A stretch of 64,000 bases of DNA from Aristaeella hokkaidonensis (GTDB lineage Bacteria > Bacillota > Clostridia > Christensenellales > Aristaeellaceae), in NCBI RefSeq assembly GCF_018128945.1, contig NZ_CP068393.1:1178001-1242000 (forward strand), in the 5' to 3' direction. The notes under the pieces were generated by a model, which saw nothing but the letters and a program-made list of their open reading frames with translations, had not been told where the DNA came from and did not search any database. Shown here piece after piece: positions 3,645 through 64,000 of this stretch (position 1 is its first letter; the number at the start of each line of letters is the position of its first letter). The translations under genes were made by a program, and so were the position numbers.

Positions 3645-5237
3645 TCAAAGGTCTCCCGGGAATACGCCGCGGTAGTTGCCCGCATTGTAAGCCGCGCGGA
3701 ATTCGTCGATCATCTGCTGAGCACCGGAGTTCAGGATATCCTGGATGCCGGCATCATAGACAGCGTCGAATTCGGCAGGATCGCAGCTGACCACGTCAGC
3801 CAGGAACTTGCCCTGAGCGCTCTTAACGGTGGCGCCGTAGTCGGTGTCAGCCTGGATGCTGACGGTGAAGCTGATCTGGGTCCACGCATCGGTCAGAGCG
3901 TCAGCGTAGGAAGCCACGACGTCATCTTCATATCCCTTGAAGGGCAGGGCCAGAGCGGCAGCGTTCTTGGCGTCGTCGCCGTAGCACAGACCGTTGGAGA
4001 TGAAGCAGATGTCGCCGGCGTGCATCTTGTTCTCGTCCGGAACAGCGTCAGCGCTCTTCACGCCGAACGGGATGCCGTCGTCGGTCAGGCCTTCATAGTT
4101 GATGCCTTCGATACCGTTCTGCATAGCGAACATGTTCTCCGGAATGGCCATCCAGTCGAGGTACTTCATCGCGGCCACAGCGGTCTTCTCGTCGGTGGTC
4201 AGCGGGATGATGATGCTCAGGCCGGCAGGAGCGTACATGTCATGCAGGGTCTTTCCGCCCAGGCTCTCGTTCTTGAAGGGGTTGACGGTGACCCAGTGGC
4301 CGCCTTCAACGTTCTTCTCGAGTTCGATCTGGTAGTTCTTGTCAGTCCGCCAGGGCTGGTCGGGCTGCTGGGAGAAGAATCCGTTGTAACCCATGATCAG
4401 GGCGGTATCATTCGCCTGGTCATTGTCGGTCAGGGCGAAGGTTTCGGGGATGATGCCCTCATGATACAGGGTGTTCATCCAGCGGAAGCCTTCCTTGCTG
4501 CCGGGCAGCATTTCGGGGTTCTTGCAGTATGCGAACCAGTCTTCCTTGGTAACCTTGGTGAAATCGATGAAAGCATCGGTGAACCGGCGTACATTGTACA
4601 GCGGATCGGGAGCATAGATGCCGAAGGAGAAGGGAGAGGTATTCTCGCCAGCCAGCTTGGCTTCCTTGGCAGCACGCAGGTAAGCGGTGAACTCTTCGAT
4701 GTTGGTGGGCTTTTCCATGTTCAGGGCCTTCAGCCAGTCTTCACGGATGAAGTTACCAACGTTAGCGCGGCTGATACGACGGGCCGGGATGTACCACTGT
4801 TCGGGGGTGCCATCGCCGTCATGATCGCTCTGGCCGTAGGTCAGGAGCTCGTCGCCCAGGAACGCCTTCAGGTTTTCGCCGTAGGTGTTCAGCAGGTCAT
4901 CCAGCTGCCAGATACCTTCGTCGTCGATGCACTGCTGCACCAGGCCGCCGTTGTAGGTCAGGCACAGGTCAGGAGCGGTGCCGCCGGCCAGCGCGGTGGT
5001 CAGCAGGTCGCCTTCGGTCCAACGGGCGTAGGACACGAACTCGAGCTTGATCTTGTTGGGATCGCCGAAGTGTTCCTGAGCGTACTTCAGCTGCCAGCAG
5101 TCAGTCACGTTCAGACCGGCGATTTCGCGGTCATAGGTCTCAACCCGCAGCGTAATCCATTCGTCTTCCGCCAGGGAGGGTCCTGCGATGCCCAGCAGCA
5201 GAGCCAGGGTCAGCAGAATAGCCAGGGTCTTTTTCAT
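3645..5237 (-). CDS. Extracellular solute-binding protein of a CUT1-type ABC importer (LplA-like)
   Basis: 530 residues from ATG 5237, which has AAGGAGGA about eight bases upstream; the longer reading frame adds ten unlikely residues. The N-terminus MKKTLAILLTLALLLGIAG then PSLAED is a classical signal peptide with an AxA-type cleavage site and no lipobox Cys. The body (large size, DLCLTYNGG, WYIPARR, GYNGFFSQQP) fits the family-1 solute-binding proteins found with LplB/LplC permeases. Captures a carbohydrate outside the membrane and delivers it to the permeases encoded at 5389-7258. It is the last gene of the operon (permease B, permease C, binding protein), separated from the permeases by a hairpin/TTTTAAG element that may set its level independently. 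Confidence 0.92.
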   Translation of the reverse strand: MKKTLAILLTLALLLGIAGPSLAEDEWITLRVETYDREIAGLNVTDCWQLKYAQEHFGDPNKIKLEFVSYARWTEGDLLTTALAGGTAPDLCLTYNGGLVQQCIDDEGIWQLDDLLNTYGENLKAFLGDELLTYGQSDHDGDGTPEQWYIPARRISRANVGNFIREDWLKALNMEKPTNIEEFTAYLRAAKEAKLAGENTSPFSFGIYAPDPLYNVRRFTDAFIDFTKVTKEDWFAYCKNPEMLPGSKEGFRWMNTLYHEGIIPETFALTDNDQANDTALIMGYNGFFSQQPDQPWRTDKNYQIELEKNVEGGHWVTVNPFKNESLGGKTLHDMYAPAGLSIIIPLTTDEKTAVAAMKYLDWMAIPENMFAMQNGIEGINYEGLTDDGIPFGVKSADAVPDENKMHAGDICFISNGLCYGDDAKNAAALALPFKGYEDDVVASYADALTDAWTQISFTVSIQADTDYGATVKSAQGKFLADVVSCDPAEFDAVYDAGIQDILNSGAQQMIDEFRAAYNAGNYRGVFPGDL

Positions 5238-9693: not shown

Positions 9694-10995
9694 TCACTTG
9701 CCTGAGATGGTGATTCCATCGAAGGCAATGAACGGCAGCGAGTTGTTCCCATCATTCGCGATATCTTTACTGATATCGCGAATGTTTACCAGCATGTCGG
9801 GTACATTCCCGCTGATCATCGTCTCGCTTATCGCTGCCGTTATTTTCCCATTCTCGATCAGGAAGCTATTTTTTGCCACTCCCGAGAACTCACCGCTTGC
9901 CGCCGGTTGTCCGCCCGAGAATCTCATGACCAGCAGTCCTTTGTCGATTCCGCTGATGATCTCTTCCAGCGTTTTTTCGCCGGCCGCAACGTGCATGTTT
10001 CTTCCGCCGTTTCCGGCACGTTTGTTTCCGGTCTTGTTTGCGGCGTATTGGCTCAGGCAGAAGCTGTTCAGCTTTCCGTCCTTAATCAGGTCAAAGTTCT
10101 CTGTCTCGTATCCTTCCGCGGTGTGCCGGTTCGGAACCACAACGTCGTCGTTGTAGGGTTCAGAGCTCATGTTGAACCGCGGATCTGCCACCTGTTCGCC
10201 CAGCTTGTCTTTCCATATGCTGGTGCCATCGATCATGCAGGCGTCGCCGACAAAGTTGCCCATAATCGTACCCAGTACGATCTCATATAGTGCCATGGGA
10301 GCCAGGATCACCGGTCCGTTGAATTTTCCTTCCAGGGAGATCGGATCCAGCTGCTTTTCAACCATGCTGATTTCCCAGTCGATCTTGCCGCATTCCAGCA
10401 CCGGCTTATCCAGCGTCTTCAGCGTGATATCGCTGCCATAGAAGGATGTGCTCTTCTCTCCTTCATGTGCGGAATACATCAGGCTGAAAGTGTATGCGCC
10501 GTAATTCGTCACATAGTTCACGCCGTTTGTGTTCATAAACACTTCTGTGCCGCTGTTATGTTCGGTGATCATCTGCTCCATCAGGATCGTCGGGTGCTTC
10601 TCCTTGATGCTCTCCAGCAGTTCCTTTGTCCGCATGAACAGCTTGTCGGTATCGCATTCCGGGGCGCCGTCCGTATATTCCTTTTCAACGGGCTCTTTGG
10701 CGTATTCCCATGCTTCGTCCGGCTGACCGCTTTCCGCAGCCGCTATCGCGTCAGAAACGGCATTCTTCACCGTTTCAATATCAAACTTGTTGATCGCTAC
10801 TGTGCCCTTCTTTTGATCCTTCAGCAGCGTAATGGTGACGTTGCGGTTAAACAGTGATCTCATCAGGGAGAATCTGCCGCCGTCCACATTGAATTCCTTT
10901 TTCTCGCCCTCGCTGACGCTGCACTGGGCATATTCTGCGCCCTTCGCTTTTGCTTCTGCCAGGATCTCTCTGGCCAGTTCTTTCATTCTATCCAT
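9694..10995 (-). CDS. pmbA: TldE/PmbA family protein
   Basis: 433 residues, co-encoded with TldD. In characterised systems TldD and TldE form a heterodimeric metalloprotease in which TldD carries the zinc site and TldE is the inactive partner; they cleave unfolded leader peptides such as those of microcins. Here the PmbA-type middle and C-terminal regions are clear (PVILAPMALYEIVLGT, MHVAAGEKTLEEIISGIDKGLLV, GEFSGVAKNSFLIENGKI), with no HExxxH. The ATG at 10995 is one base after the tldD stop and its GGAGG lies inside tldD, so translation is coupled. A peptide-maturation role, for example on the peptide at 63243, is possible but only inferred. Confidence 0.93.
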   Translation of the reverse strand: MDRMKELAREILAEAKAKGAEYAQCSVSEGEKKEFNVDGGRFSLMRSLFNRNVTITLLKDQKKGTVAINKFDIETVKNAVSDAIAAAESGQPDEAWEYAKEPVEKEYTDGAPECDTDKLFMRTKELLESIKEKHPTILMEQMITEHNSGTEVFMNTNGVNYVTNYGAYTFSLMYSAHEGEKSTSFYGSDITLKTLDKPVLECGKIDWEISMVEKQLDPISLEGKFNGPVILAPMALYEIVLGTIMGNFVGDACMIDGTSIWKDKLGEQVADPRFNMSSEPYNDDVVVPNRHTAEGYETENFDLIKDGKLNSFCLSQYAANKTGNKRAGNGGRNMHVAAGEKTLEEIISGIDKGLLVMRFSGGQPAASGEFSGVAKNSFLIENGKITAAISETMISGNVPDMLVNIRDISKDIANDGNNSLPFIAFDGITISGK

Positions 10996-10996
10996 C

Positions 10997-12382
10997 TTAT
11001 CGGCCTCCGATCTTAACCTTGCAGCGCAGCGCGGGGCCGCCCATGCCTACCGGCATCGGCTGTTTCTTTCCGCACATACCGGAACTCACCCACACAACCT
11101 TATCGCTGACCATGTCAACTGTCTTCAGCATCTCGAAAGCCACGCCGGAAATCGTGGTATCCAGCAGGGCCTTGCCGAGCTTGCCGTTCTTGATTTCGTA
11201 TCCCATTGTCACGCCGAACATGAATTCGCCGGTCGTGTCTGCCTGTCCGTTGTTGGACTGGATCAGGTAGTATCCGTCGTCCACGGATGCAATCATGTCC
11301 TCCAGCTTGTCTTTGCCGGGGTGGATGGAGGTATTGCGCATCCGGATCAGCGGTTCATCCTGGAACAGCCATGCACGGGCGTTGCCCTGGGGCGTCATGC
11401 CGAAGTGCTGTGCGCTTTCCCGGCTGTTCATGTATCCGGTCAGTATACCATTCACAATCAGCGGAGAATCGGTCGCTTCGGTGCCTTCATCGTCGATGTA
11501 CACCGGCAGCGGGCACTTCTCGCCGAAGGCGGTATGTGCAAAGTCTGTCAGGGTCACCAGGTCGCTGGCCACCCGCTTGTTCAGGCACGGGCCTGCTACG
11601 CTGCCGCCCAGCACCAGGTCCGCTTCCACGGTATGGCCCACAGCTTCATGGCTCAGCATGCCGCTCATCATACCGTCCAGGATTACGGTCTTTTCGCCAG
11701 CGTCCGCGTATACGCCTTCCCGCTTCTGCATCAGCTTTTCATATAGGTCGTCAATCTCCACATGCAGCTTGGTTGGATCGGCAAAGTTGTCGCCGAATAC
11801 GCCGCTTCCGCCGAACGCCTGGAACAGTTCCACCGGCGTGCCTGCGTCCGTCTGCGCCGTCAGTACGACGTACATATAGGATCTGGGAGCCAGGATGTGT
11901 CCGCTTGCCCCGTCAGAGGTCACAATCAGCTTCTCCATGGAGTCTTCCATGGCAACGATTGTGCGGCTGACCAGGTTCGGATACTTCTTGGTGATGTATG
12001 CGTCTGCCTCACGGGCAAAATCCACATAAAGCTTCTGCTCCGCGTCCTTGATATCTTCCTGTGTGGGCATCTGCTTCAGTGCCATTTTCGGCAGGGCAGG
12101 CTTTCCAATTCCTGCGTGCTTGTTCATGAAGGCAGCGTTCTCTGTCGCGGCCTTCAGTACCATTTCTGCCGCCTCGCCGGTATATTCGGCCATGGAGGAG
12201 AAACCGTATACGCCGCCCTCATATACCCGGGCGGAAACACCGGATACGTCGGAGCGTACGTTTCCCATCAGGGCGCCGTTCAGCAGAACGGCTCTGCGGG
12301 TTCTGTTGTTCTGTCCGCGCAGTTCGGTATGAGCGCCGTCAGCAAACAGGGCTTTTTTATCTGTCAGTATATCCTGCAGCAT
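10997..12382 (-). CDS. tldD: TldD family metalloprotease subunit
   Basis: 461 residues from ATG 12382 (AAAGGAAG upstream; the longer frame would overlap metA). The zinc motif HEAVGH (HExxxH) lies at about residues 244-249, followed by GSVAGPCLNKRVASD and, near the C-terminus, GVAFEMLKTVDMVSDK and SSGMCGKKQPMPVG, all typical of TldD. It is the catalytic half of the TldD/TldE peptidase. Follows metA by 13 bp and may share its promoter. Confidence 0.95.
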   Translation of the reverse strand: MLQDILTDKKALFADGAHTELRGQNNRTRRAVLLNGALMGNVRSDVSGVSARVYEGGVYGFSSMAEYTGEAAEMVLKAATENAAFMNKHAGIGKPALPKMALKQMPTQEDIKDAEQKLYVDFAREADAYITKKYPNLVSRTIVAMEDSMEKLIVTSDGASGHILAPRSYMYVVLTAQTDAGTPVELFQAFGGSGVFGDNFADPTKLHVEIDDLYEKLMQKREGVYADAGEKTVILDGMMSGMLSHEAVGHTVEADLVLGGSVAGPCLNKRVASDLVTLTDFAHTAFGEKCPLPVYIDDEGTEATDSPLIVNGILTGYMNSRESAQHFGMTPQGNARAWLFQDEPLIRMRNTSIHPGKDKLEDMIASVDDGYYLIQSNNGQADTTGEFMFGVTMGYEIKNGKLGKALLDTTISGVAFEMLKTVDMVSDKVVWVSSGMCGKKQPMPVGMGGPALRCKVKIGGR

Positions 12383-12395
12383 TTTGTTCTTCCTT

Positions 12396-13316
12396 TCATT
12401 CATTGATCTCGTTCAGATCATACGGTGTGGTCTGGTAGACCATGTAGTTCAGCCAGTTGGCATACAGCAGGTTTGCGTGGCTGCGCCAGGTGACCAGCGG
12501 TTCCTGGGTATCATCGTCATTCGGATAATAGTTCTTCGGAACCTCAATCGGCAGTCCCGCGTTCTTGTCCCGCAGGTACTCTTTTTCCAGTGTCCGCGGA
12601 TCATACTCGCTGTGTCCCATAATGAACACCTGCCGGCCGTTCTCCGTAATCATTGCGTAAACGCCTGCTTCGTCGGAGGAAGCCAGGATTTTGAGCTTTC
12701 CGCACTTTTCCAGGTCTTCGCGGCGTACTGTGGTGTGCCGGCTGTGAGGAGCCATAAACACGTCATCAAAGCCGCGCAGGAGAATGTAGTTCTTCCGCTC
12801 TGCTTTGTGCTGGAATACGCCGAACAGCTTCTTCTCCAGCGGAATTTTCGGAATGCCGAAGTGGTAGTACAGCGCTGCCTGCGCGCCCCAGCAGATATGG
12901 AAGGTGCTGTGTACATGCTTCTTGCTCCACTCCATAATCTCGCACAGTTCGTCCCAGTATTCCACTTCTTCAAAGGGCATCTGTTCCACCGGTGCGCCGG
13001 TGATAATCATACCGTCAAAGTTCTGGTTGCGGATATCGTCAAATTCCTTATAAAAGGCAGTCAGGTGCTCTGCCGACGTATTCTTTGACACATGGCTCTT
13101 CATCTTCACCAGCTCGGTTTCCACCTGCAGTGAGGTGTTTCCCAGCAGGCGCAGCAGCTGCGTTTCGGTATCGATCTTCGTGGGCATCAGATTCACGATG
13201 GCGATTCGCAGCGGACGGATATCCTGGGTCGTTGCCCGGTTTTCCGTCATCACGAAGATATTCTCATCCGTCAGCGTTTTGTACGCCGGCAGTTCATTGG
13301 AAATCTTAATCGGCAT
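12396..13316 (-). CDS. metA: Homoserine O-acyltransferase, predicted O-acetyltransferase
   Basis: 306 residues from ATG 13316 (GGAAG seven bases upstream), the normal MetA length. Acylates homoserine in methionine synthesis. Catalytic Cys142 (FHICWGAQA) and the His/Glu pair in GHSEYD are present. Residue 111 is Glu (TGAPVEQ): studies of the B. cereus enzyme showed that Glu at this position selects acetyl-CoA, while Gly (as in E. coli) selects succinyl-CoA, so acetyl-CoA is predicted. A TTGATT-17-TACAAT promoter lies at 13351-13379. I see no SAM riboswitch upstream. The 36 codons before the chosen start have no ribosome site. Confidence 0.95.
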
Positions 13317-62211: not shown

Positions 62212-63129
62212 TCACGCGCTACACGTCGTGAATCTTTTCTTCGCTTGTTCACACGTTTCCCTTACCTTCTCCAGATATCCTTCCTTCCACACATTCTCCA
62301 TATCGTCTGTAATACGCTTCCACGATACAATCTGGCCGTCCGGGCCTATATACCAGCCTAAATATCCTTTTTTGCCTTCATTCTTATAATCTATAACCCT
62401 GTATTCTCCTGTACCCTTATACAGATCCACTACGCCTTCAAAGCGCACAACTACACGCATTCCATCGGCATAATACTCTGGAATATACCGAAGTACGGCT
62501 TCCACGTATTCCTTTGTGCTCATCTCATTCCCGGCGGCATAGTGCTTCCACATGTCATTATTTCTGACTTCATGACAAATGATCTTCCTGACGCCCAAGT
62601 CTGCAAGTACATCCACCGTTTCCCGCAGAACATCCGTATTCCCGCGGTGAATGTTCATCTCAACGCTGGTCGGGAATCCCCTGAGACAGCAGCGGATCAG
62701 TGCGTTCCTTGCCGCCTGTTCCGCTCCTTTGATGCCCCGCATCCAGTCATGCTTTTCCACGCCGTCAAAGCCCACGCAGAATTCCGGTTTCATACCGCGC
62801 TGTTCAAACTGATCCAGTACGCTGTCCATCAGCAGCCAGCCGTTGGTATAGATCTTGTCGATCTTCATGCCTTTTTCCAGCGCATAGTCCACCAGGCTCC
62901 AGAAGTCCTCCCGTACAAACGGTTCCCCTCCGGAAATCTTCAGGCTCCGCACGCCGCATTTTGCCATCCGGTCAATTGCCTGGATCGCTTCCAAATGTGT
63001 CATTTCATCCAGGGCGGAATCCGGCGTATTGACGCAGCAGAACCTGCACCGGAAGTTGCACCTTCCGGTGATCGTCCACAAAACCTGTTCAGTATATCGC
63101 TTGGCAAACGGATCACAGTACTTTTCCAT
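62212..63129 (-). CDS. Radical SAM enzyme of a RiPP-type cluster
   Basis: 305 residues; AAGGAGAA four bases before the ATG. The CxxxCxxC iron-sulphur motif is GRCNFRCRFCCVN (Cys about 24, 28, 31), followed by SLKISGGEPFVREDFW (GGEP, SAM binding, about 62-77), KIDKIYTNGWLL and FCVGFDGVEKHDWMRGIKG. The C-terminus has a SPASM/twitch-like WYIGPDGQIVSWKRITDD pattern, but only two Cys near the very end (ETCEQAKKRFTTCSA), so an auxiliary cluster is doubtful. Downstream of a PqqD-like gene and a Trp-rich small peptide gene on the same strand; the likely job is to modify that peptide. Confidence 0.9.
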   Translation of the reverse strand: MEKYCDPFAKRYTEQVLWTITGRCNFRCRFCCVNTPDSALDEMTHLEAIQAIDRMAKCGVRSLKISGGEPFVREDFWSLVDYALEKGMKIDKIYTNGWLLMDSVLDQFEQRGMKPEFCVGFDGVEKHDWMRGIKGAEQAARNALIRCCLRGFPTSVEMNIHRGNTDVLRETVDVLADLGVRKIICHEVRNNDMWKHYAAGNEMSTKEYVEAVLRYIPEYYADGMRVVVRFEGVVDLYKGTGEYRVIDYKNEGKKGYLGWYIGPDGQIVSWKRITDDMENVWKEGYLEKVRETCEQAKKRFTTCSA

Positions 63130-63187
63130 GCTGTTCTCCTTCGTCTTGTCGCGCTGTTCAAAGAAAACTTCTGACTATGCGAGTGAA

Positions 63188-63213
63188 GGGTATCAAAAGA
63201 TGCTTTGATACCC
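63188..63213 (-). promoter_or_regulatory. 10-bp hairpin between the precursor and radical SAM genes
   Basis: GGGTATCAAA / TTTGATACCC with loop AGATGC; no T-run follows on the minus strand. Could protect or attenuate the precursor mRNA so that peptide is made in excess over enzyme. Confidence 0.6.
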
Positions 63214-63242
63214 ATACAAAACAAAATGTATTTAGACGATTA

Positions 63243-63437
63243 TCAGAACCACCAGCCACCAAACCAGCCGCCGAACCATCCCCATCCCCATCCATGGGAT
63301 GCTTTTTTCGTATTCTTGGTATTTGTATTGTTATAAGGATTATAACAATTGAATGACTTCTGGTCATAACCGGAGCATGTCAGGATGTCTTCATTCCCCA
63401 GGTTGATAATGGTTACCTTCGCTTTCTCGTACTTCAT
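63243..63437 (-). CDS. Putative RiPP precursor peptide with Trp/Gly/Phe core
   Basis: 64 residues; AAAGGGG before the ATG. Leader-like N-terminus MKYEKAKVTIINLGNEDILT, similar in style to small Firmicutes peptides starting MKYEKP; a middle with two Cys and Asn/Tyr/Lys repeats (CSGYDQKSFNCYNPYNN); and a C-terminus GWGWGWFGGWFGGWWF (residues 49-64). Aromatic residues W50, W52, W54, F55, W58, F59, W62, W63, F64 alternate with Gly, as expected for a substrate of ring-forming radical SAM enzymes. Lies between a PqqD-like gene (17 bp) and a radical SAM gene (113 bp). Product unknown; cleavage site not obvious (KKASHG is a candidate). Confidence 0.75.
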   Translation of the reverse strand: MKYEKAKVTIINLGNEDILTCSGYDQKSFNCYNPYNNTNTKNTKKASHGWGWGWFGGWFGGWWF

Positions 63438-63454
63438 TTTTGTTCCCCTTTCGA

Positions 63455-63727
63455 TTATTGAATGGTTTCTATTGCGGGAGAGATACTCTCCAGAAATTCG
63501 CCAATGTCCTGCCTGGCGGTAGGCTCATCCAGGTCCACGTAGCGTTCCATGGAAACTGCAATCAGCTTTTCAAAGGTCGTTCCCTTTTCAATCATTCCCC
63601 AGTAGAACGCCCCTGTTTCATTGGTCTGGATAATCTTCCTGAAATGATCCGCGTTCTCCCCGGTGGCTATGATCATGTATTCGTCCAGCATCTTCTGCAT
63701 GACGAACCCATCCCTGGCCCTGATCAT
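63455..63727 (-). CDS. PqqD-like RiPP recognition element protein
   Basis: 90 residues from ATG 63727, seven bases after AAAGGAGG. Pattern DGFVMQKMLDEYMIIATGEN, then a winged-helix-like part (NETGAFYWGMIEKGTTFEKL, DEPTARQDIGEFLESI) corresponds to the PqqD/RRE fold: N-terminal beta hairpin, strands and three helices. Such proteins bind the leader of a RiPP precursor and present it to a radical SAM enzyme. Directly upstream of the putative precursor gene, which supports this reading. Confidence 0.8.
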   Translation of the reverse strand: MIRARDGFVMQKMLDEYMIIATGENADHFRKIIQTNETGAFYWGMIEKGTTFEKLIAVSMERYVDLDEPTARQDIGEFLESISPAIETIQ

Positions 63728-63755
63728 CCGCATTCCTCCTTTTTCCTTTCTTCTG

Positions 63756-64000
63756 TCAAACAACGTATTGTACTTTCTTTTCCTTTTGAATCTGTTCCCA
63801 GAGCTTGTCCGGCTCTTCCTTGTACATATTGCAGGTGTACAGGTAAAACGGCACTTCCCGGATAAAGCGTTCCATCAGGTTCATGAAGACGCCCATGAGC
63901 TTGGGATTGCTGGGCACCAGCACCTGTTTGAAGAGCCGCTGCGAGATCTCCTTCGCGTCCATGCGCCGGAGGGATACTTCCTCGCCCCGCTCCAGGAAAC
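63756..64000 (-). CDS. Unrecognised CDS, C-terminal fragment running off the window
   Basis: About 81 codons are visible and the frame stays open to the right edge, so the gene most likely starts outside. The visible end reads MDAKEISQRLFKQVLVPSNP, KLMGVFMNLMERFIREVPFY, LYTCNMYKEEPDKLWEQIQK, EKKVQYVV. An ATG at 63962 could be a start but has only a poor ribosome site. Its stop is 28 bp before the PqqD-like start, so it belongs to the same operon. I do not recognise the family; given the context it may be another RiPP maturation or transport gene. Confidence 0.6.
   Translation of the reverse strand, partial: FLERGEEVSLRRMDAKEISQRLFKQVLVPSNPKLMGVFMNLMERFIREVPFYLYTCNMYKEEPDKLWEQIQKEKKVQYVV

Follow-up and report, generated by a model that had tools for sequence, protein, structure and literature searches.

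A compact radical SAM enzyme lacking the SPASM cysteines and its probable Trp/Gly/Phe-rich precursor peptide in Aristaeella hokkaidonensis

At the right end of a window of 64,000 nucleotides from Aristaeella hokkaidonensis (bases 1178001-1242000 of a 3.39-Mb genome assembled in one contig), the minus strand carries what is very probably a system for a ribosomally synthesised and post-translationally modified peptide (RiPP) matured by a radical S-adenosylmethionine (SAM) enzyme. In the order of transcription, the locus encodes an HprK-like protein (235 aa), a PqqD-type protein (90 aa), a precursor peptide (64 aa) and a radical SAM enzyme (305 aa), all on that strand. The HprK-like kinase homologue enters the window with its C-terminal part (63756..64000, 245 bases), while the rest is contained in locus L003 up to position 4464, and its start lies 463 bases outside the window. 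The stand-alone PqqD-type leader-recognition protein (63455..63727) matches Pfam PqqD with an E value of 3.4e-10, scored on a slightly longer open reading frame (ORF). The precursor (63243..63437), whose ATG is preceded by the ribosome-site-like stretch AAAGGGG, is composed of the leader MKYEKAKVTIINLGNEDILTCSG and a variable core ending in GWGWGWFGGWFGGWWF. A hairpin that is not followed by a T-run (63188..63213) separates its stop codon from the start of the enzyme gene (62212..63129). The compact enzyme carries the CxxxCxxC motif as CNFRCRFC and matches Pfam Radical_SAM (E 5.7e-18); an N-terminal RiPP recognition element (RRE) is absent and the SPASM cysteine region is deleted, while the C-terminal WKEGYLEKV is retained. 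A sequence-only reading had named these parts as a gene cut by the window edge, a 90-residue PqqD-like protein, a 64-residue peptide, a strong hairpin and a CNFRCRFC radical SAM protein. All are present on the minus strand, and extension of the DNA to the right completed the cut gene as the HprK-like one.

The name HprK-like is a weak assignment, drawn from NCBIfam matches below their cut-offs (ScmC, 20.8 bits against 125; HprK-related, 15.9 against 200), and the putative kinase homologue has no Pfam match at E 0.01. Because a terminator-like site precedes this gene, separating it from the metallophosphatase gene upstream, we suggest an operon of these four genes with the HprK-like gene first; the scan gave four such sites in total, against 4.5 in shuffled sequences. 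The locus displays the general traits of radical-SAM RiPP systems, namely a short precursor beside its maturase, a conserved leader with a variable core, a CxxxCxxC domain and a stand-alone PqqD as the RRE. NCBIfam and Pfam profile searches gave no specific model for the enzyme or precursor family, in line with the earlier proposal of a RiPP operon that combines a precursor and a PqqD-type protein with a radical SAM maturase and that falls outside the curated families. Literature searches found nothing on HPr kinase/PqqD radical-SAM RiPPs, Aristaeella RiPPs, SynChlorMet or Trp-rich radical-SAM RiPPs, within a search that did not reach most subscription papers.

The orthologous locus of a second genome of the genus (G023) has the identical gene order, with an enzyme 92% identical to that of the window. 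The leader is near-identical, while the W/G/F core is rewritten, ending in ...GWGWGWFGGWFGGWWF in the window and ...SFWGGFWGWFHW in G023. Such a tail beside a PqqD-like gene was what the sequence-only reading had suggested looking for at orthologous loci. The peptide claim was also held to be vulnerable to orthologous loci lacking the frame and to a non-coding synonymous-site pattern; neither applies to G023, where the peptide frame is found again, as it is among 29 database proteins, and where the leader has a dN/dS of 0.082, from 23 codons with few sites. Against the claim stands G001, whose enzyme is 69% identical and in whose genome no precursor match appeared even at E 1. Between the window genome and G023 (Nei-Gojobori), the ratios were 0.126 for the enzyme, 0.068 for PqqD, 0.141 for the HprK-like protein and, on a doubtful alignment with a dS of 1.9, 0.27 for the core. 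Along the operon (L037 13994-16242), dS climbs from 0.07 in the HprK-like gene through 0.14 in PqqD and 0.36 in the enzyme to near saturation in the core, a gradient suggestive of exchange, or of rapid change, with the core and the enzyme at its centre.

Precursor searches at E 0.001 matched only the window genome and G023, both among 61 genomes of the genus and order and, by single sequence as well as by profile, among 45 genomes of the genus. Two protein searches gave the 29 database relatives, several of which are near-copies (P0121 of the window, P0129 of G023), and together with the window and G023 they form a set of 31 sequences. The leader ends in LTCS in 29 of the 31 (27 of the 29 database relatives); P0143 and P0149 do not have this motif, and their cores are Cys-rich. 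Four of the LTCS precursors look truncated or frameshifted (P0132, P0134, P0137 and P0140). In P0140 the GW repeat seems to be read in a shifted frame (LGLGLG), reflecting either an easily changing repeat or a sequencing error. The remaining 25 all contain at least six W+F after LTCS, with a mean of 9.1, as well as two to seven K/R, and 22 of them terminate in W or F. A lipobox was considered for LTCS and rejected by eye, since Thr stands before the Cys and a hydrophobic stretch is missing. The records of precursor P0138 and enzyme P0004 both give 2712 as the longest contig, which hints that the two lie on one contig.

The arrangement of the aromatic residues was assessed on the final 18 residues of 24 different cores, leaving out the four damaged precursors and the two without LTCS, against 1000 shuffles; two pairs are identical over this stretch, and relatedness was unweighted. 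W/F pairs are enriched at spacing 4 (54 against 38.8 shuffled; 0/1000 as high) and spacing 3 (52 against 41.6; 8/1000), weakly so at spacing 2 (51 against 44.4 ± 4.4; 76/1000), and number 43 against 47.3 at spacing 1. Gly followed by W/F occurs 55 times, against 40.7 in the shuffles (0/1000 as high). A strict gramicidin-like alternation is not favoured by these counts.

What is new concerns the enzyme. Out of 5.8 billion proteins searched at E 1e-20, 136 matched; among the best 120 used here (P0001-P0120), P0001-P0010 share the short C-terminus (64-91% identical, 272-388 aa), while the other relatives are mostly 460-480 aa, with a SPASM region and one more domain at the N-terminus. The alignment had 121 rows; with P0033 removed, which ends before the SPASM region, the counts cover 11 compact rows (the window enzyme and the ten compact relatives) and 109 rows classed as full-length, a few of which are shorter than that. 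The radical SAM cysteines are present in 11/11 compact rows and 108/109 others. The six SPASM cysteine columns are occupied in 0/11 compact rows, against 106, 107, 107, 107, 107 and 109 of the 109 others. Two further Cys columns (93/109 and 103/109 in the others) are each Cys in a single compact row, a near-C-terminal column (108/109) is kept in four compact rows, and another (63/109) in none. Pfam SPASM matched P0011, whereas PF13186 did not match the window enzyme even at E 1. Since the WKEGYLEKV stretch at the C-terminus is common to compact and full-length enzymes, the loss is an internal deletion and not a cut-off gene; in P0007 and P0008 the deletion is larger still.

In a tree built on 229 columns of the radical SAM core for 60 of the 121 rows, a branch with an SH-aLRT of 100 separates the 11 compact rows from the others, and the SPASM loss is one change. 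The tree was made by a quick method without bootstrap, and on its assumed midpoint root the compact clade would branch within the full-length rows, pointing to an origin inside a family of RRE-radical SAM-SPASM maturases. The N-terminal domain is absent in ten of the 11 compact rows and retained in P0009, and a 447-aa enzyme of genome G001 (L039 11932-13275) has the N-terminal domain and no SPASM cysteines. Both proteins fit a loss of SPASM before the RRE, at a fork for which the tree lacks resolution. The neighbours of the G001 enzyme are phosphatase and HprK-like genes; neither a PqqD nor a precursor was seen there, and the protein is a possible intermediate or orphan. Among 150 further genomes of the order, a search at E 1e-40 matched, besides the window genome, only G001 and G124 (a 479-aa frame, 42% identical), and the compact form therefore looks narrow in range; a one-protein scan of the genome contigs found nothing.

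The compact enzymes have cysteines of their own. C5, C58, C118, C147, C185 and C293 are each kept in 10 or 11 of the 11 rows. C118 is invariant among them, and 95/109 relatives have Ser at that column; C185 is likewise in 11/11, and in 16/109 relatives. The predicted structure is a confident radical SAM fold (pLDDT 88, pTM 0.88), in which both residues lie in barrel strands, with C118 positioned two residues ahead of the Ser in SkfB's ISIDG. After the barrel, residues 227-301 form short strands and one helix only, with no C-terminal RRE. The near folds include SuiB, SkfB and the sactipeptide thioether maturase 5wgg. A viperin (pVip) assignment was rejected, since the PADLOC pVip profile (55.7 bits) covers only residues 16-110, the general radical SAM core.

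The full-length relatives (P0011-P0120; loci L056-L134) are 39-57% identical to the window enzyme and constitute its unnamed parent family. Most of them begin with an RRE-like fold and conserve as many as nine cysteines in the SPASM region, both features missing from the window enzyme; the titles of their loci mention Clostridia, Faecalibacterium, Synergistaceae and Atopobiaceae, among others. The N-terminal domain may be an RRE, as modelled: in the predicted fold of P0011, SkfB and SuiB align from residues 9 and 3, respectively (ranges only), while an hhalign comparison of nine PqqD proteins with the first ~85 residues in 104 of the full-length relatives found no match (probability 0.2-0.3%). 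With 12 tblastn seeds, the 80 loci gave HprK in 14, PqqD in 12, an S24/S26-type peptidase in 13, an ABC exporter in 35 and a nucleotidyltransferase in four; HprK and PqqD occur together in 12, all within the best 23.

The precursors found in this family share the leader shape MKYEKAxAEVxxFDNSDVITxSG. The earlier statement that the leader matches no nameable RiPP family thus stands in part: four scanned precursors of this type have no NCBIfam or Pfam match, but same-shaped leaders precede full-length members of the enzyme family. A leader pattern run on genus loci L036-L054 and the 80 relative loci gave 17 ORFs, from which the compact-type G023 precursor and three ORFs that were not precursor-like (in L045, L052 and one in L066) were dropped; the addition by eye of precursors in L059 and L066 brought the total to 15, contributed by 10 of the 80 relative loci and by three loci of the genus. 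All 15 lie upstream of the enzyme gene within about 0.6 kb on the same strand, as judged from the match start for L064, L067 and L073. Their cores average 2.9 Cys and 3.3 W/F/Y, against 1.0 and 9.8 in 30 TCS-type precursors, a list that includes the Cys-rich outlier P0143 and the four damaged tails and excludes P0149. The pairing of Cys-rich cores with SPASM enzymes and W/G/F cores with compact ones is a trend and not a census, with precursors in a minority of loci. The precursors at L040 11219-11428 and L041 3056-3256, beside 465-aa enzymes, have three Cys plus a common NS(M/L)F C-terminus finishing in GW, and perhaps link the two kinds of core.

At the level of sequence, the locus thus displays a conserved leader, a hypervariable W/G/F core, an enzyme under purifying selection and a SPASM-less clade. 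The loss of SPASM relative to close relatives may mean a chemistry other than the crosslinking first guessed. According to PMC8326336, a Cα radical starts the reactions of both sactisynthases and epimerases, a precursor thiol leading to a thioether and an enzyme thiol to epimerisation; proteusin epimerases have the radical SAM cluster only, and epimerases depend on a critical enzyme Cys. The lost SPASM cysteines, the fewer core Cys and the new enzyme Cys point to redox-neutral Cα chemistry, epimerisation using an enzyme thiol, to which we give a probability of roughly 0.4. PqqD would bind the leader and deliver the core to the enzyme, where the 5'-deoxyadenosyl radical would remove Cα hydrogens. 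Since the enzyme would have no auxiliary cluster that could take up an electron or bind a substrate thiolate, Cys118, and perhaps Cys185, would quench the radical, yielding D-configured Trp/Phe with an unchanged mass. After cleavage of the leader near TCSG and export, the cationic aromatic peptide would act as a membrane-active antagonist or signal. Several observations weigh against epimerisation. C21 at the leader end is present in 29/29 LTCS precursors, with a second Cys 6-12 residues further in 23/29, and the Cys-rich relatives have no Cys at the C21 place.

The sequence-only reading had proposed that the aromatic residues are crosslinked several times. The compact enzyme could join Trp/Phe side chains to neighbouring carbons with the help of an electron acceptor outside the protein or of a cluster that escaped recognition, and the richness in W+F of all 25 undamaged cores, SuiB among the near folds and the additional conserved cysteines would suit it. 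According to PMC5491770 and PMC9055067, radical SAM crosslinks at Trp exist, and single SPASM Cys mutants of a Lys-Trp cyclase retain some product formation (PMC5491770). However, the crosslinkers compared in these sources carry auxiliary clusters, which weakens this explanation for an enzyme with none of the six SPASM cysteines, and the WgkB profile (NCBIfam NF050035) scores 55 bits against a cut-off of 650. Moreover, the Gly beside Trp has no Cβ to serve as a partner. We therefore regard crosslinking as rather unlikely. A thioether from Cys21 or a core Cys to a nearby backbone carbon, leaving the W/G/F tail unmodified for membrane activity only, would account for the invariant C21 and the frequent second Cys, and agrees with the Cys-rich precursors beside SPASM-bearing relatives and with SkfB and 5wgg as near folds. 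It is nevertheless improbable: the SPASM/twitch cluster, at which the substrate thiolate has been proposed to bind (PMC8326336), is missing by cysteine count, and six of the 29 precursors have no core Cys. Slightly less probable still is a decaying protein or SAM-binding helper that no longer matures the peptide, which another enzyme would modify or which would stay unmodified; the loss of two domains and the G001 enzyme without a precursor would be explained, but not the dN/dS of 0.13, the CxxxCxxC in 11/11 rows, the new residues invariant across the clade or the confident fold. Finally, although GGATGG codons are repeated and P0140 looks frameshifted inside the repeat, a chance open frame can practically be dismissed, given the leader conserved in 29 LTCS sequences, the peptide's own ribosome site and the conserved gene order in G023.

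None of the known systems compared coincides with this one. No profile match to the proteusin and epipeptide epimerases (PoyD, EpeE) was seen; the RRE that proteusin epimerases carry at the C-terminus (PMC8326336) is not present in the window enzyme, and EpeE has a second cluster. SkfB and CteB (5wgg is CteB according to PMC8326336) differ in their twitch/SPASM clusters, fused RRE and Cys-bearing substrates. Streptide-type enzymes (SuiB, WgkB), DarE of darobactin and other aromatic crosslinkers are alike in the Trp of the core and the radical SAM fold, but they and the triceptide-type enzymes have SPASM/twitch auxiliary clusters, while the window enzyme has no C-terminal SPASM. The SynChlorMet cassette (ScmC, ScmE, ScmF) likewise brings together HprK-like, PqqD-like, peptide and radical SAM genes; its profiles stay below cut-off here (ScmE, 66.5 bits against 400, besides ScmC), and ScmE/F are named radical SAM/SPASM.

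Cleavage and export would probably be assured by a neighbouring cassette. About 11-16 kb upstream (L036 319-2391 and L003 15248-18329; G000:C1:1253247-1258390) lie genes for a second radical SAM protein (432 aa, with sub-cut-off matches to radical SAM/SPASM peptide maturases), a 78-aa peptide with a ...DMVNGG leader, PqqD and, named by eye, an HprK-like protein, an S24/S26-type peptidase and an ABC exporter. Peptidase and exporter homologues are found upstream of the enzyme on the same strand at 12/14 kb in the window genome, 12/14.5 kb in G023 and 1.5/8 kb in G001; the ABC matches in G023 and G001 each count one stop codon, possibly the gene end, and the L058 peptidase homologue, with only sub-cut-off signal-peptidase and S24 matches, is a weak assignment. 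These appear to be better candidates for maturation than the TldD/TldE pair suggested earlier as the protease. The adjacent ORFs 9694-10995 and 10997-12403, which by their motifs look like that pair, lie about 50 kb from the operon, and no link to it was seen. In G001 (L039 1485-1859 and 4655-4930), three Cys-containing precursor-like peptides stand by another radical SAM gene and HprK-like, PqqD and peptidase-like genes.

The 113-nt gap with the hairpin folds at -31.4 kcal/mol (z -3.8; 0/200 shuffles as low), and the G023 gap (L037 15217-15324) has a strong hairpin too (z -3.9) of unrelated sequence. In these two genomes the position of the hairpin after the precursor is kept and its letters are not. 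The hairpin probably sets the expression ratio of precursor to enzyme.

The role of SPASM/twitch clusters is described as controversial in PMC8326336, and sister groups that are ~55% identical, one with and one without the SPASM region and with different-looking substrates, offer a natural comparison of the role of the clusters. Were the compact enzyme an epimerase, it would have emerged as one within a SPASM family, and the Trp-rich peptides that it modifies, short and hypervariable, would be candidate membrane-active agents. A bolder conjecture, to which we attach little weight, is that a SPASM maturase of the thioether type was trimmed to a bare barrel and gained cysteines of its own to become an epimerase, as its substrate exchanged Cys for Trp-Gly/Trp-Phe stretches. 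The product would then insert into membranes as a short helix resembling those of gramicidin or polytheonamide, with Gly and D-Trp/D-Phe alternating with L-Trp. Should a SPASM maturase indeed have turned epimerase, the family would show the stepwise turn of one radical chemistry into another.
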